Of a stretch of DNA of 7,591 bases, positions 1,788 through 7,544 are shown in pieces. The notes beneath the pieces were generated by a model that searched no databases, had not been told where the DNA came from, and saw only the letters and a list, made by a program, of their open reading frames with translations. The position numbers and the translations under genes are program-made. Source of the DNA: Candidatus Eiseniibacteriota bacterium. GTDB taxonomy: Bacteria > Arandabacterota > Arandabacteria > JAGLYR01. Where the stretch lies: positions 1 to 7,591 of the forward strand of contig JAGLYR010000045.1 in assembly GCA_023132135.1 (NCBI GenBank), read 5' to 3'. Positions within the stretch are counted from its first letter, which is position 1, and every line of letters begins with the position of its first letter.

Positions 1788-1889
1788 CCTTACACAAGGA
1801 GGTGGTTCTATCGCGCGGATGAGACCACTATGGTGCCGTCGCAACTGCGACGGAAAGTTCACAGGTTGTCAACCCTGAGGAGGTTTTGA
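1788..1889 (+). promoter_or_regulatory. Structured 5' leader of the small OB-fold gene with orphan Shine-Dalgarno and tiny ORFs
   Basis: An unusually strong ribosome-binding sequence, AAGGAGGTGG (1796-1805), lies 86 nt before the gene's ATG and does not serve it. The preceding CCTT (1788-1791) can pair with AAGG (1796-1799). Two 19-codon frames follow: ATG 1819 to TGA 1876-1878 (MRPLWCRRNCDGKFTGCQP), and ATG 1830 to TGA 1887-1889, which ends 2 nt before the gene's ATG. A perfect 7-bp hairpin (CCGTCGC 1836-1842, GCGACGG 1847-1853, loop AACT) sits inside both. The shape suggests a translated or folded leader, but it matches no riboswitch consensus I know. Either tiny frame could be chance: the SD is 16 nt from the first ATG, longer than usual. 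Confidence 0.3.
1877..1883 (+). promoter_or_regulatory. Ribosome-binding site deciding the start of the small OB-fold gene
   Basis: GAGGAGG ends 8 nt before the ATG at 1892, which is ideal spacing. An in-frame TTG at 1886 is only 2 nt away and is rejected as the start. Both upstream 19-codon frames overlap this site, which would couple their translation to initiation here. Confidence 0.75.
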
Positions 1890-1891
1890 AA

Positions 1892-2608
1892 ATGAAGAAA
1901 GCTCTTATGTTGGTCCTGGCAAGCATGCTCGTGGCTCCGGCTGCCTATGCCGTTGACATCGCTGTTGTCAAGACCGTCGACGATAATTGCTATCCCGTGT
2001 ACTTCGGCATGTATGTGACCGTCCAGGGTCTCGCGATGTCCGGCGACGAGCTGGGCAGTGCCGGCCCCGCCTACATCGAGGACCCCACCGGTGGAGTGGC
2101 CTACTACGAATACCCGGTCGGCATTCAGACTGGTGACTTCGTGGAAATCAGCGCGTGGATCGATTTCTACGCGGGCCTGATCGAGCTGGCCGACGATCCC
2201 GTGACGGGTGAGCCTCCGGTCGTGACCATTCTCTCGAGCGGCAACCCGGTAGTGCCCCATGTCATCACCATCCCCGACCTGGGTGAGTTCTGGGAAGGCT
2301 CGCTGGGCAAGTTCGAGTGCGTCTTCTTCCCCGAAGCCGACGGCATCGTCGTCTTCACCGGTAGCCACGACTTTGAGGATGCGTTCGGCAACGTCGGCAC
2401 GCTGTACACCGACAGCTCCACGGACGTCCGTGGCTCCATCATTCCGCAAGGCTGGCTCAACATTACCGGCTGCCTCGGTCAGTACGACAACGAGTCGCCC
2501 TACTGCGAGTTCTACCAGGTGATTCCTCGCAGCATGGCCGACTTCGAGTACTCGCCCTCCGCTACCGACGATGTGTCCTGGAGCGGTGTGAAGGCGCTGT
2601 ACCGGTAG
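1892..2608 (+). CDS. Small secreted OB-fold-like protein
   Basis: A 238-residue protein of unknown specific function. Residues 1-20 form a clean Sec signal peptide (KK at 2-3, hydrophobic core, AYA before Val21). The mature part aligns by eye with residues 27-236 of the PLD protein at 5109-7544. Shared landmarks are GDFVEI (81-86), IDFYAGLIEL (90-99), VTILSSGNPVVP (111-122), EGSLGKF (135-141) and GCLGQYDNESPY followed by IPRSMADF (193-218). This looks like the tandem OB-fold region often attached to secreted nucleases and phosphatases, here standing alone. There is no catalytic motif, so a nucleic-acid or ligand-binding accessory is inferred. It lacks the 80-90-residue sorting domain of the flanking exported proteins and instead ends in a low-complexity linker plus SWSGVKALYR (229-238), which may be a separate C-terminal signal. 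Start chosen by RBS and signal peptide. It follows the first CDS on the same strand, 166 nt downstream. Confidence 0.88.
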   Translation: MKKALMLVLASMLVAPAAYAVDIAVVKTVDDNCYPVYFGMYVTVQGLAMSGDELGSAGPAYIEDPTGGVAYYEYPVGIQTGDFVEISAWIDFYAGLIELADDPVTGEPPVVTILSSGNPVVPHVITIPDLGEFWEGSLGKFECVFFPEADGIVVFTGSHDFEDAFGNVGTLYTDSSTDVRGSIIPQGWLNITGCLGQYDNESPYCEFYQVIPRSMADFEYSPSATDDVSWSGVKALYR

Positions 2609-2753: not shown

Positions 2754-4289
2754 CTACCGCATCTCCTCCATCCTCCCATCCACCACGGATTCAATCACGG
2801 CCGCTTCGCGTACCGCATCTGTGATCGCCTGGGTCACCGTCACGCCCAGGGATTCCACGTTCCTGGGTTCGAATCCGAAGTAGCGATCCCAGTGCGCCGC
2901 GGTGTAATCGAGCGACGCGACAACATACATCCGGTCTCCGCGGACAGGCACCCCTCCCACTTCCACCCGCTCGACGACGGCCTCGCCCGACGGGGCGCGG
3001 CGCCAGCAATACCGGATTCCCGAGACCTGGAGAATTCCACCGCCGCCGACCGCTGCCCGGGCATTCTCCCGGACCAAAGCCAGAAGATCCTTCCCCGTGC
3101 ACTCAAACCGCACGAGCACGTTGTCGAAGGGGAGTATTTCCTGGATATCCAGAACCTTGATCCATCCCTGCCGCAAGGATTTCCGGATCCCGCCGCTGTT
3201 GAGCACAGCAACATCCGCGCCGGCAACCTCTCGCATTCGATCGGCAATCCAGCTGCCGAGGTTGCTCTCCCCTTCCGAGGACCGGAACCAATCGGTCTTG
3301 AGCTCCGCGATGACCTCCCCGTAGAGCTCGTCGATCTGCTGGTCAAACTGCTTTGCCAGAATCGCCACTCTCGGATCGGGCTCCGCCTCGCTCCGCCACA
3401 TGGGAATCAGCTGCCCGCGGTAGGAGGCCACGCTGTCTCCCGCGACCAGAACGTCCAACCGGCCCAGATAGCGGTTGTTTGCCCCCGCCTGGCAGATGAC
3501 GATCCGGTGTCTCCTGACCGGCTCCTCGATCCGCGTATGGCTATGCCCCCCAACAATCACATCCACCCGCCCCTCCAGAGCCTCAGCCATCACCTCGTCC
3601 GCATCGACCCCCACGTGTGTCAGGAGGATGATCAGATCCGTCCTGGCATCGACCTCGTCCAGGATTCTCTCGATGGCCGCCAGTTCCGGCTCAATCCTCA
3701 ACCCGTCCACCGATCCGGCCCGCAGGTAACCCGGGAGGCTCTCCATGAGGAGCCCGATCACACCAACCCGCACATCTCCCAGCGTGAAGACCTCGTAACC
3801 CTTCCCTGTGAAAAACCGGCCCGATTCGTCAAAGACATTAGCGAGCAGTATCGGCATTTCCGCCATCGCGATCAGCTGGCTGGTGACCTTTCGCTTATGG
3901 TCGAAATCGTGGTTGCCCAGGCAGACTGCGTCGTAGCCCAGGAGGTTCATGAAGGCCACCATCCCCCCACCTTGGACCCCATCGTACTCCAGATCGCAGA
4001 TTGGATTGCCCGTCATGAAGTCTCCCGCGTCCAGAAGAAGACTCCGCTCCACCTCCCGCCTCTCCCGGTCCACGTAAAAGTTCGCCGCGGCGAATCCGCC
4101 GATGGGAGGATTCCCGTCAATCCAGCCGGCGGGAGTCGCCAGGTACTTCCCGTGCATGTCGTTGGTGTGAAGAATCGTGACCCACTGCCCCGCCTGCCCG
4201 CCGGGTTCCTTCCCGCACGAAAAGCCCGCAAGGGCAAGGCCTGCGAGAAGCACGGGGAACAGTAGAAAGAGTTGTTTGCTTCTCCCCAC
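2754..4289 (-). CDS. Exported 5'-nucleotidase family metallophosphoesterase (UshA/YhcR/NadN-like)
   Basis: A 511-residue protein, the usual family length, likely hydrolysing phosphate from nucleotides (5'-AMP, NMN or similar) outside the cytoplasm. Residues 1-24 are a signal sequence. Cys25 follows GFS, a poor lipobox, so it is either an atypical lipoprotein or is cut after ALA (19-21). The metallophosphatase half has all metal-site motifs: HTNDMHG (41-47), DAGD (87-90), GNHDFDH (125-131), LLTHVG (222-227), GGHSH (247-251). The C-terminal 5_nucleotid_C half has NSGGIR (364-369), EILPFDN (384-390) and LQVSG (420-424). The late segment that usually reads GGDG[YF] reads AAHWDRYFGF (464-473) here, and Ile419 sits where Phe is common, so substrate preference may differ. 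It starts at GTG one base after the stop of the upstream kinase-like gene. Its ribosome-binding site (AAGAAGG) lies in the last codons of that gene, implying translational coupling. The family is secure; the exact substrate is not. Confidence 0.93.
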   Translation of the reverse strand: MGRSKQLFLLFPVLLAGLALAGFSCGKEPGGQAGQWVTILHTNDMHGKYLATPAGWIDGNPPIGGFAAANFYVDRERREVERSLLLDAGDFMTGNPICDLEYDGVQGGGMVAFMNLLGYDAVCLGNHDFDHKRKVTSQLIAMAEMPILLANVFDESGRFFTGKGYEVFTLGDVRVGVIGLLMESLPGYLRAGSVDGLRIEPELAAIERILDEVDARTDLIILLTHVGVDADEVMAEALEGRVDVIVGGHSHTRIEEPVRRHRIVICQAGANNRYLGRLDVLVAGDSVASYRGQLIPMWRSEAEPDPRVAILAKQFDQQIDELYGEVIAELKTDWFRSSEGESNLGSWIADRMREVAGADVAVLNSGGIRKSLRQGWIKVLDIQEILPFDNVLVRFECTGKDLLALVRENARAAVGGGGILQVSGIRYCWRRAPSGEAVVERVEVGGVPVRGDRMYVVASLDYTAAHWDRYFGFEPRNVESLGVTVTQAITDAVREAAVIESVVDGRMEEMR

Positions 4290-4290
4290 G

Positions 4291-4875
4291 CTATACCTTC
4301 TTCCCGCTATTGAAGAGGCGAAGCTGGGGGGGCTCCAGAGGCAGTTCTAGATCCTCCAGTATCCGCCGCAGCCAGTTCGAGCGGTCCTCGGCCGCGAGAC
4401 GCAGGCAGGGAACCCCGAACGCGGCGACCAGCTCATCGATCATCTGGTCGATTTCCGTCTGAAACGTTTGACTGAGATCCCGCGTCCCATCAAAGCTGGG
4501 AGCTTCGGAAATGGGAACCTTGATCAAGCGGGTGTAGGTTTCAAGCCAGCGGGCAACTACCGGCTCGAGAGAATCAACCCTGCCTACCTGGTGAACAAGG
4601 TAGGCATAGTTGTCCAGAACCGATCGGTCACAGATGACGGCGTTGTACTTGTCCGCAGCCGCTATTTCCCGGGAAATCTGGGTGTGCAGAATCCACGCCT
4701 GCGCGTCGAAGGTGGTGTCCTGATTGATGGGAAGGGGACACTCGCGGGCGACCTCCTTGACGAAGTCGACGGCAAAATCGAGGCGTTTCAGCCTTGCGGC
4801 AAGATCATAGCAGAGGGTGGTTTTTCCTACTCCATGGGTCCCGATGAACGCAACCTTGAGTCTTCGCTCCTGCAC
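4291..4875 (-). CDS. P-loop ATPase/kinase of the AAA_28 (NadR-like) type
   Basis: A 194-residue cytoplasmic protein with no signal peptide. Walker A is GTHGVGKT (12-19) just after the first beta strand. The Walker B/DRS-like strand is AVICDRSVLDNY (79-90), reminiscent of nucleoside and deoxynucleoside kinases. FDGTRDL (128-134) matches the DG-R segment seen in AAA_28 and NadR kinase domains and could be part of the lid. It probably transfers ATP gamma-phosphate to a small nucleoside-like substrate. Nicotinamide riboside is one candidate by family, but there is no adenylyltransferase domain and no helix-turn-helix, so this is not full NadR. The start is GTG at 4875, with AGGGGG (4885-4880) only 4 nt upstream, a rather tight spacing. 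The next gene starts one base after its TAG, so both are made together. Fold assignment is strong; substrate is inference. Confidence 0.85.
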   Translation of the reverse strand: MQERRLKVAFIGTHGVGKTTLCYDLAARLKRLDFAVDFVKEVARECPLPINQDTTFDAQAWILHTQISREIAAADKYNAVICDRSVLDNYAYLVHQVGRVDSLEPVVARWLETYTRLIKVPISEAPSFDGTRDLSQTFQTEIDQMIDELVAAFGVPCLRLAAEDRSNWLRRILEDLELPLEPPQLRLFNSGKKV

Positions 4876-5108: not shown

Positions 5109-7544
5109 ATGCGACCAGTCGTTTGCCTAGTTATGGCCCTTTCTCTTGCGCTTCCCCTTGTGGCTCTCGATGCCGCGGCCCTGCCCATCATCGAGATCCA
5201 CCGGAACAATTCCTCCGGGGAACCCCTCGACCTTGGGACCGTCGTCACCATCAGCGGGATTGTAACCTCCCCCGACGGCATTTACAGCACCTACCACAGC
5301 GAGGTATACATCCAGGACGAAACAGCAGGCGTGAACATGTGGGTGAGCGGCGCCTTCGGCGTGTACAACCTTGCGTTGGGAGACAGCGTGACGCTCACCG
5401 CGCCCATCGACTTCTACAACGGACTGACGGAGCTGGGAACATCCACCTCGCAGGTGACCCTGACCAACCACTCCAGCGGGAACATGGTTCCCGATCCCCT
5501 GGAGATTACGTGCCAGGATCTGAACTTCACGTTCCAGCCCGACTACACCGAACCCAACGAGGGACGTCTGATCCAGGTCAATAACCTGACGATCGTCTCC
5601 GGAAGCTGGCCGGTGACGCCGCAGCCCAGCAACACGATCCTGAATGTCACGGACGGCACCGCTACCTCCCTGTTGTTTATCGACAAGGACTCCGATGTCA
5701 ATGGCTCGCCGGCGCCCATCGGTCCCTTCGACTGCATTGGTATCCTGAAGCAGTACGACAACACCCCCCCCTACACATCCGGGTACGAGATCTCGCCCCG
5801 CTACGTGACGGACATCATCCACCATTCCCCGGGGCCGCTCTTCACCGTCCCCCCGTACGTTTCGGACGTGACGTCGACAACGGCCACGATCGAATGGGAA
5901 ACGAACATTGACAGTGATTCGTGGGTGGACTACGGAGAGACCATCGCCTACGGCTCCGGAACGGGTCAGATCGGGGAAACCGTGCCCCATCACGTCGTGG
6001 ATCTCTCGGGCCTCACGCCCAACACCGTGTACCATTTCCGGGCCCAGTCCACCAACGGCGGCGCGACATCCCAGAGCAACGATTACCTGCTGGTCACGGC
6101 TTCCGACACCCCGGGCGAGATCCACGTGTTCTTCAACGGATCCGTAGACAATACCTATGCGCTCTCGGGCAACAATGCACAGGGGAACGTCGATCTCCTG
6201 GACGAGCTTCTGGCGAGGATCCACGGGGCGCAGTATTCCATCGATTGCTGCCTTTACAGCTTCAGCCTGTACGAGCTGGCCGACAGTCTGATCGCCGCTC
6301 ACAACCGGGGCGTTGAGGTACGTCTCATCAAGGACGCCGACCTGAGCAACACCCAGGCCAACCGCCTCGGCGCCGCGGGCATTCCCTGGATCAACAGCGA
6401 TTACGGCGGAAATCACTCGGCGGCGGACGGCTACGGCATCTGTCACAACAAGTTCTTCGTGTTCGATCAAAGGGACCTCACCAGCAAGGCTGACGATTGG
6501 CTCTGGACCGGCTCGTGGAATGTCTCCATCGCGGGAGAAGACGACATCAATAACGTGGTGATGGTCCGCGATTTCGGTCTCGCGGAGGCCTACACCCGCG
6601 AGTTCGACGAGATGTGGGGCTCTTCGACCATGACACCCAACTGGTCGGAGGCCAAGATGGGATCCAGGAAATCCGACAACACGCCCCACACCTTCCGGAT
6701 CAACGATATCCTGTTCGAGCAGTACATGAGCCCGTCGGACGGGACGGCATCGAAGATCATCGAGAAGATCGAGGCTGCAGATCACAGCATCTACTTCTGC
6801 ATCCTGTCCTTCACGCAGTACCAGATTTCCAACGCCATGAAGGACCAGCGGGACGCAGTGCCGGACCTGGAGGTCCGGGGCGTGTTCTACGAGGGCATCG
6901 CCTCGTATGAAGACGGCGGCAGCCAGTGGTACCCCATGAGCGGCGACCCGGTGGCGTGGAACTACTGGGATCCACCGGCCGATGTGTGGCTGGATACGGC
7001 GCTGCCCAGCTCCAAGCTTCTCCACCACAAATACGTGGTCGTGGATGCCAACTCCTGGAGCGACCCGGTCGTCTCCACCGGATCCCACAACTGGAGTTAC
7101 TCGGCGAGCTCCCGTAATGACGAGAACACCGTCATGATTCACGACCGGATGATCTCCAACCTGTTCCTCCAGGAATTCGCAGACCGGTACCACGAGAGTG
7201 GAGGCACCGGGTCTCTGGGTGAACTCGCCGCTGTGTCGGACGGGAGCGACCTTGTTCCGGTCGCCGGGCTGGCTCTCCACCAGAACGTGCCGAACCCGTT
7301 CAACCCCTCGACGACCATCTCCTTCGAGAACCGGGTCAGAGAGCGGATTTCCCTGAAGGTCTACGACACGACCGGTCGCCTCGTCCGGACATTGATCGCG
7401 GGCAACGCGACGGCTCCCGGCGCTCACGTGGTCGGCTGGGACGGGAAGAACGACCACGGCGAGCCCGTGGCCAGCGGTGTGTACCTCTGCCGGTTGGAGG
7501 GTGAGAAGAGGAATCTGACGAAAAAGATGCTGTTGTTAAAGTAG
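5109..7544 (+). CDS. Secreted phospholipase D-family protein: OB-fold, FN3, two HKD domains, sorting domain
   Basis: An 811-residue exported protein. Residues 1-24 are a Sec signal peptide (cut near AAA/LP). About 27-236 is the OB-fold-like region (VVTISGIV 45-52, GDSVTL 91-96, GLTELG 105-110, GILKQYDN 211-218, ISPRYVTDI 228-236). About 247-331 is an FN3-like domain (TTATIEWETN 257-266, GLTPNTVYHFRAQ 301-313). About 338-505 is the first PLD half with H446-x-K448-x4-D453 and TGSWN (467-471). About 533-695 is the second half with H639-x-K641-x4-D646 and TGSHN (657-661). Residues 720-811 are a FlgD-Ig/type IX-type sorting domain (NVPNPFNPSTT 726-736, VYDTTGR 751-757, GVYLCRL 790-796). Both HKD sites are complete, so a phosphodiesterase using a phosphohistidine intermediate is expected. 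Nuclease is favoured because of the OB region, but phospholipase activity cannot be excluded. It is a single gene divergent from the kinase-nucleotidase pair, with its own promoter. Confidence 0.93.
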   Translation: MRPVVCLVMALSLALPLVALDAAALPIIEIHRNNSSGEPLDLGTVVTISGIVTSPDGIYSTYHSEVYIQDETAGVNMWVSGAFGVYNLALGDSVTLTAPIDFYNGLTELGTSTSQVTLTNHSSGNMVPDPLEITCQDLNFTFQPDYTEPNEGRLIQVNNLTIVSGSWPVTPQPSNTILNVTDGTATSLLFIDKDSDVNGSPAPIGPFDCIGILKQYDNTPPYTSGYEISPRYVTDIIHHSPGPLFTVPPYVSDVTSTTATIEWETNIDSDSWVDYGETIAYGSGTGQIGETVPHHVVDLSGLTPNTVYHFRAQSTNGGATSQSNDYLLVTASDTPGEIHVFFNGSVDNTYALSGNNAQGNVDLLDELLARIHGAQYSIDCCLYSFSLYELADSLIAAHNRGVEVRLIKDADLSNTQANRLGAAGIPWINSDYGGNHSAADGYGICHNKFFVFDQRDLTSKADDWLWTGSWNVSIAGEDDINNVVMVRDFGLAEAYTREFDEMWGSSTMTPNWSEAKMGSRKSDNTPHTFRINDILFEQYMSPSDGTASKIIEKIEAADHSIYFCILSFTQYQISNAMKDQRDAVPDLEVRGVFYEGIASYEDGGSQWYPMSGDPVAWNYWDPPADVWLDTALPSSKLLHHKYVVVDANSWSDPVVSTGSHNWSYSASSRNDENTVMIHDRMISNLFLQEFADRYHESGGTGSLGELAAVSDGSDLVPVAGLALHQNVPNPFNPSTTISFENRVRERISLKVYDTTGRLVRTLIAGNATAPGAHVVGWDGKNDHGEPVASGVYLCRLEGEKRNLTKKMLLLK

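Follow-up and report, generated by a model that had tools for sequence, protein, structure and literature searches.

The window, that is, the whole stretch of 7,591 nucleotides that was analysed, carries at 5109-7544 of the forward strand an open reading frame which starts with ATG behind a strong Shine-Dalgarno sequence (GGAAGGAG) and encodes 811 amino acids without internal stops. From the reading frame and Pfam, its product is a PLD-fold enzyme that is predicted to be secreted; a promoter and terminator scan gave no signal exceeding that of shuffles. The protein begins with a predicted signal peptide (about residues 1-25; 5109-5183, this and the following features being on the forward strand), recognised from the sequence and modelled by AF2 as a helix at residues 2-18. 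Behind it lies a tandem OB-fold region (residues 26-240; 5184-5828), seen in Pfam, AF2 models, profile and fold matches, in which DUF5689 (PF18942) is matched at residues 39-220 (E 1e-9) with 39.0 bits, above the gathering cut-off of 28.6. The next segment is an FN3-like domain (residues 243-332; 5835-6104; AF2 model and Pfam fn3 at 251-321, E 1e-6), and then comes a two-repeat PLD catalytic core (residues 336-700; 6114-7208; Pfam, profiles and fold alignment), where PLDc_2 is found in two stretches (E 2.6e-32). The C-terminus is a T9SS type A / FlgD_ig sorting domain (residues 720-811; 7266-7541; Pfam, TIGR04183 and model), with FlgD_ig at residues 743-798 (E 5e-10), TIGR04183 (T9SS type A sorting domain) at 27.8 bits against a cut-off of 23, and Por_Secre_tail at residues 728-807 (E 1e-5), whose 26.1 bits are slightly below the 27-bit cut-off.

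In the family alignment, HKD motif 1 (HNKFFVFD) lies at residues 446-453 (6444-6467) with TGSWN at 467-471 (6507-6521), and HKD motif 2 (HHKYVVVD) at residues 639-646 (7023-7046) with TGSHN at 657-661 (7077-7091). It turned out that both motifs are intact exactly at the residues named by the first-pass annotation (H446/K448/D453 and H639/K641/D646), each with the TGS-N that it had described, and two HxKx4D motifs in a duplicated PLD fold place the protein in the PLD superfamily. The domain order it had proposed, namely OB region, FN3, two-site PLD and sorting domain, is confirmed by Pfam and TIGR04183, far beyond chance. The AF2 model of the full chain has a mean pLDDT of 87.5 and a pTM of 0.63, with inter-domain geometry uncertain.

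Besides the PLD gene, the window encodes a secreted stand-alone OB (DUF5689) protein (1886-2608, forward strand; Pfam), which shares 32% identity with the OB region (E 1e-17) and is its paralogue, a secreted UshA-like 5'-nucleotidase (2754-4289, reverse strand; Pfam and NCBIfam), a possible functional partner, and a P-loop kinase-like (AAA_28) protein (4291-4875, reverse strand; ORF and Pfam). The kinase-like and 5'-nucleotidase genes form an apparent two-gene operon, divergent from the PLD gene. The OB protein, 5'-nucleotidase and kinase fit nucleic-acid scavenging, which has been described for sediment DNA degraders (PMC8289736), but this neighbourhood is only suggestive, because the nucleotidase and the kinase are missing at every homologous locus examined (tblastn of both against 19 homologous loci found none). 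A conserved system of nuclease plus 5'-nucleotidase was rejected on the same absence from the 19 loci. An anti-phage defence role was also rejected, as PADLOC gave only weak DrmC matches and defence genes were absent nearby. At the contig edge, the ORF at 1-1725 encodes a T9SS sorting domain. Its residues 309-405 resemble the ExeM/NucH N-terminus weakly (E 4e-10, under the cut-off of the model), and no catalytic domain was recognised in it.

The first-pass annotation had called the protein secreted, and this is what its sequence predicts: signal peptide and type A sorting domain are combined in one chain, and T9SS genes are present in the genome, as for T9SS cargo. The C-terminal domain, by which the protein was proposed to be held at the surface, serves in T9SS as an export signal that can be removed, and the cargo may end up anchored or released. 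The host genome (3.4 Mb, 96% complete), which belongs to a small class (eight genomes in the set used), contains matches to SprA_N (E 3e-20) and PorV (E 3e-22) and a full-length PorU (E 4e-166) that adjoins PorV on contig C141. Since SprA, PorV and full-length PorU are encoded, the sorting domain has machinery to use it. The 811-aa query has matches at about 125 further places in the genome, nearly all via the C-terminal sorting domain, which is very many for a genome of this size and points to a T9SS-rich secretome.

For the N-terminal region, AF2 of residues 26-240 alone gave two OB-like barrels (pLDDT 96.0, pTM 0.91), with OB1 strands at about residues 45-122 and OB2 strands at about 154-238. 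Foldseek against the PDB placed HIN-200 tandem-OB DNA sensors first (E 3e-6) and RPA, RADX and SSB lower. VIA-align, which covered mainly the first barrel, matched the AspRS anticodon-binding, HIN-200, RPA and SSB OB domains with Z 10-11.4 over about 88 residues; designed protein-binding OB scaffolds (OBodies) score equally, so the fold is no proof of nucleic-acid binding. By OB profile against the PDB, RPA2 was best (E 4e-4), followed by two EEP-domain proteins with a weak 0.017, and Pfam tRNA_anti-codon OB was matched by 19 of 30 family members. An absence of any OB fold in residues 27-236 would have spoken against the original proposal, and AF2, Foldseek and VIA-align all gave the opposite picture, with two predicted OB-like barrels whose PDB matches are OB domains. 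In ExeM, removal of the comparable OB region abolishes all activity and removal of the lamin-tail domain (LTD) does not (PMC6085458), and Riemerella cannot do without a DUF5689 protein in natural transformation and DNA uptake (PMC8459023).

The module is shared with 48 other OB proteins, which mostly carry LTD (15) and structural domains, while nuclease-type domains are few (three metallo-beta-lactamase and one EEP; there is also one M43 protease). The idea of the OB region as a nuclease-only module was rejected, as LTD and structural domains dominate this set. The proteins of L016 (535-2403), L022 (3-1814) and L178 (472-4089) fuse a ComEC/Rec2-type metallo-beta-lactamase to the same tandem OB module, those of L016 and L022 also with a T9SS sorting domain, and from sequence all three are candidate exported MBL-fold nucleases. 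In L018 (1210-3237) and L019 (355-2394), matches to CehA/McbA-type PHP metallohydrolases, under the curated cut-off, precede this OB module. Relatives from the class of the host carry the module beside ComEC/Rec2-type metallo-beta-lactamase and CehA-type PHP domains.

To place the PLD core, a sequence profile of seven PLD cores was run against PDB sequences. The matches were, in order, Zucchini/MitoPLD (1.6e-17), Nuc (1.9e-14), NucT (5e-9), PLD3 (4e-7) and S. plymuthica PLD (1.5e-5), followed by a virion nicking-joining enzyme and FAM83B, and lipid synthases were absent from these matches at E<=0.01. In NCBIfam, NucT gave E 8e-11 versus 0.04 for cardiolipin synthase, both far under cut-off, and the lipid PLD / cardiolipin synthase model NF009107 reached only 12.6 bits (E 0.042) against a cut-off of 787. 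VIA-align of the AF2 model gave PLD3/PLD4 as the best match (Z 34.6, rmsd 2.5 over 323 residues), then S. plymuthica PLD (33.0), F13 (31.4) and phosphatidylserine synthase (28.8), with PLD2 (Z 27.9) and Streptomyces PLD (Z 25.2) lower; the gap between PLD3 and S. plymuthica PLD is only 1.6 Z, so the substrate is not settled by fold alone. G-S is present in both PLD repeats, and GS-GS at the same place is a nuclease pattern (PMC8004604). It had been set beforehand that matches to phospholipases or synthases only would count against a nuclease, and this did not come true with either the profile or VIA-align: the nearest relatives by sequence profile and predicted fold are nucleases, and the core can be regarded as nuclease-like on these grounds. 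The mature protein is acidic (pI 4.5), with a net charge of -19 in the OB region and -28 in the PLD core (family medians -11.5 and -21). Charge was rejected as support for nucleic-acid binding, the result being opposite.

The protein is not one-off, and several little-studied bacterial phyla have it. The PLD-core family was found in Calditrichota, Ignavibacteria and two other phyla, and phyla other than that of the host contain full-length relatives that are 40-42% identical. Its profile matches 30 of 82 genomes of a phylum taken to be Calditrichota at E<=1e-30 (25 of these below 1e-100), all five genomes of the G058 phylum and the sole genome examined of the G008 phylum, while two Ignavibacteria records have family members; the contig scan yielded three loci only. 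Among the 36 aligned members, 34 span both sites, and 32 of these have two canonical HKD motifs, with H446, F449, S469 and the EFxEMWG block at the end of repeat 1 among the invariant or near-invariant columns. L067 has D replaced by E in the HKD of site 1, and L011 (2692-4380; Ignavibacteria) has lost both HKD motifs as well as the OB region and is likely, from its sequence, a pseudoenzyme. The order OB-FN3-PLD-sorting is kept in most members, and the N-terminal modules differ: most have OB, L014 has LTD and OB, L015 has LTD alone, and L011 has neither. In the same class as the host, L091 (3632-4171; G001:C32) is a 5'-truncated remnant with 59% identity over residues 632-810, which retains only HKD2 and the sorting domain, its upstream region no longer coding for the remainder. 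A search of the open-access literature did not turn up a publication that describes this PLD architecture.

The host genome also encodes a second two-HKD PLD, at L195 (1162-2478; G000:C70), which matches S. plymuthica PLD with E 4.5e-95 and mammalian PLD3 with 5e-46. PLD3 orthology of the 5109-7544 protein was rejected, as its profile E of 4e-7 compares with 5e-46 for the C70 protein in the same genome. Since the C70 protein is the true S. plymuthica PLD/PLD3 relative, the 5109-7544 protein represents a separate branch and not a PLD3 orthologue.

Taken together, profiles and predicted structures suggest that the product of 5109-7544 is probably a T9SS-exported extracellular PLD-fold nuclease. 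The signal peptide would take it across the inner membrane and T9SS across the outer membrane, where PorU would cut off the C-terminal domain. By the chemistry of the PLD superfamily (PMC10783504), the two HKD sites of the single chain would form one metal-independent active site, in which one His would attack the phosphodiester to give a phosphohistidine and the other His would act as general acid, with Lys and Asn residues holding the phosphate. The OB pair may, as in ExeM, keep nucleic acid (DNA or RNA) close to the active site, and FN3 could perhaps be a spacer. The products might then pass to a secreted 5'-nucleotidase, perhaps the adjoining one, for phosphate and nucleoside scavenging. 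A bolder version seems doubtful to us, in which these proteins found a family, so far without description, of PLD nucleases that are exported by T9SS, metal-independent and processive and use a HIN-200-like OB pair to thread single strands into a PLD3-like site, and Calditrichota and related phyla live on extracellular DNA in this way. A widespread exported family that couples a metal-independent PLD engine to the OB/LTD modules of ExeM would mean that accessory modules are swapped between unrelated nuclease engines, and it would point to a way, open to experiment, in which uncultured phyla recycle DNA.

The protein might instead be a secreted phospholipase D or another lipid or head-group phosphodiesterase, which hydrolyses or transphosphatidylates lipids and has OB and FN3 as generic surface spacers, though we regard this as unlikely. 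Two HKDs per chain is the usual lipid-PLD layout, to which PLD3/4 are exceptions (PMC10783504), and an acidic surface and the presence of the OB module on surface proteins with no recognised nuclease domain are in line with it, but in the profile search Zucchini, Nuc and NucT score better by many powers of ten, and the cardiolipin synthase model, at E 0.04 against 8e-11 for NucT, lies on the same side. S. plymuthica PLD is indeed the second-best fold family (Z 33.0); however, whether this enzyme cuts nucleic acids is left open by PMC8004604, the GS-GS motif pattern argues for a nuclease, and Streptomyces PLD and phosphatidylserine synthase are clearly lower in fold score.

A surface nuclease for DNA uptake, whose OB pair binds incoming DNA and which trims it for the transformation pore and not for food, is quite improbable. 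The essential Riemerella protein of natural transformation contains DUF5689, but it has no annotated PLD domain (PMC8459023). ComEC is encoded in the host genome (E 4e-62), but 10 of the 14 control genomes have it too, and its presence is therefore not telling. Relatives in the same class fuse the OB module to ComEC-type metallo-beta-lactamase domains, whereas competence genes were not recognised beside the gene in the window or beside L009, L010, L011 and L013. It is very unlikely that the protein cleaves phosphodiesters in some other extracellular polymer, serves as an interbacterial effector or mainly binds and hardly catalyses: the fold matches show that polyphosphate kinase has PLD folds too, and the L011 member has neither of the HKD motifs and no OB region, but both motifs are kept in nearly all members that span both sites, and Pfam and NCBIfam revealed neither an immunity-like gene alongside nor a toxin-delivery domain.

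Compared with known systems, the predicted exported nuclease shares features with several enzymes. With Nuc, NucT and Zucchini (MitoPLD), its closest PLD relatives by sequence profile, it shares the GSxN motifs in a GS-GS pattern and, as predicted from sequence, nuclease chemistry; a chain of those enzymes carries a single HKD and the active site is built by a homodimer, while here two repeats are fused and accessory domains are added. The 5'-3' exonucleases PLD3/PLD4 have the closest overall fold, with both sites in one chain, but the sequence similarity is low and site 2 of PLD3 is HKE. Serratia plymuthica PLD (7e0m) is likewise a bacterial two-HKD PLD, but it has no OB, FN3 or sorting domain, is annotated as a phospholipase, and has its closer relative here in the C70 protein. 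The N-terminal region is above the Pfam gathering cut-off for DUF5689 proteins, among which the Riemerella transformation protein differs in combining DUF5689 with DUF5017. ExeM and other well-studied extracellular nucleases of bacteria depend on metal. As is predicted for the 5109-7544 protein, ExeM/NucH/Xds (Shewanella, Vibrio) are exported, with an N-terminal LTD and/or tandem OB before a phosphodiesterase domain and a C-terminal surface or sorting element; in the present family the OB pair is modelled and LTD is found in L014 and L015. Their catalysis is of the metal-dependent EEP type, whereas here Pfam gives PLD (HKD) and no EEP domain, and the ExeM/NucH model NF033681 stays below cut-off (E 0.076); their export relies on rhombosortase or a membrane anchor, and here it would rely on T9SS. 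The best reading of these likenesses, by analogy, is an assembly resembling that of ExeM with a PLD engine instead.
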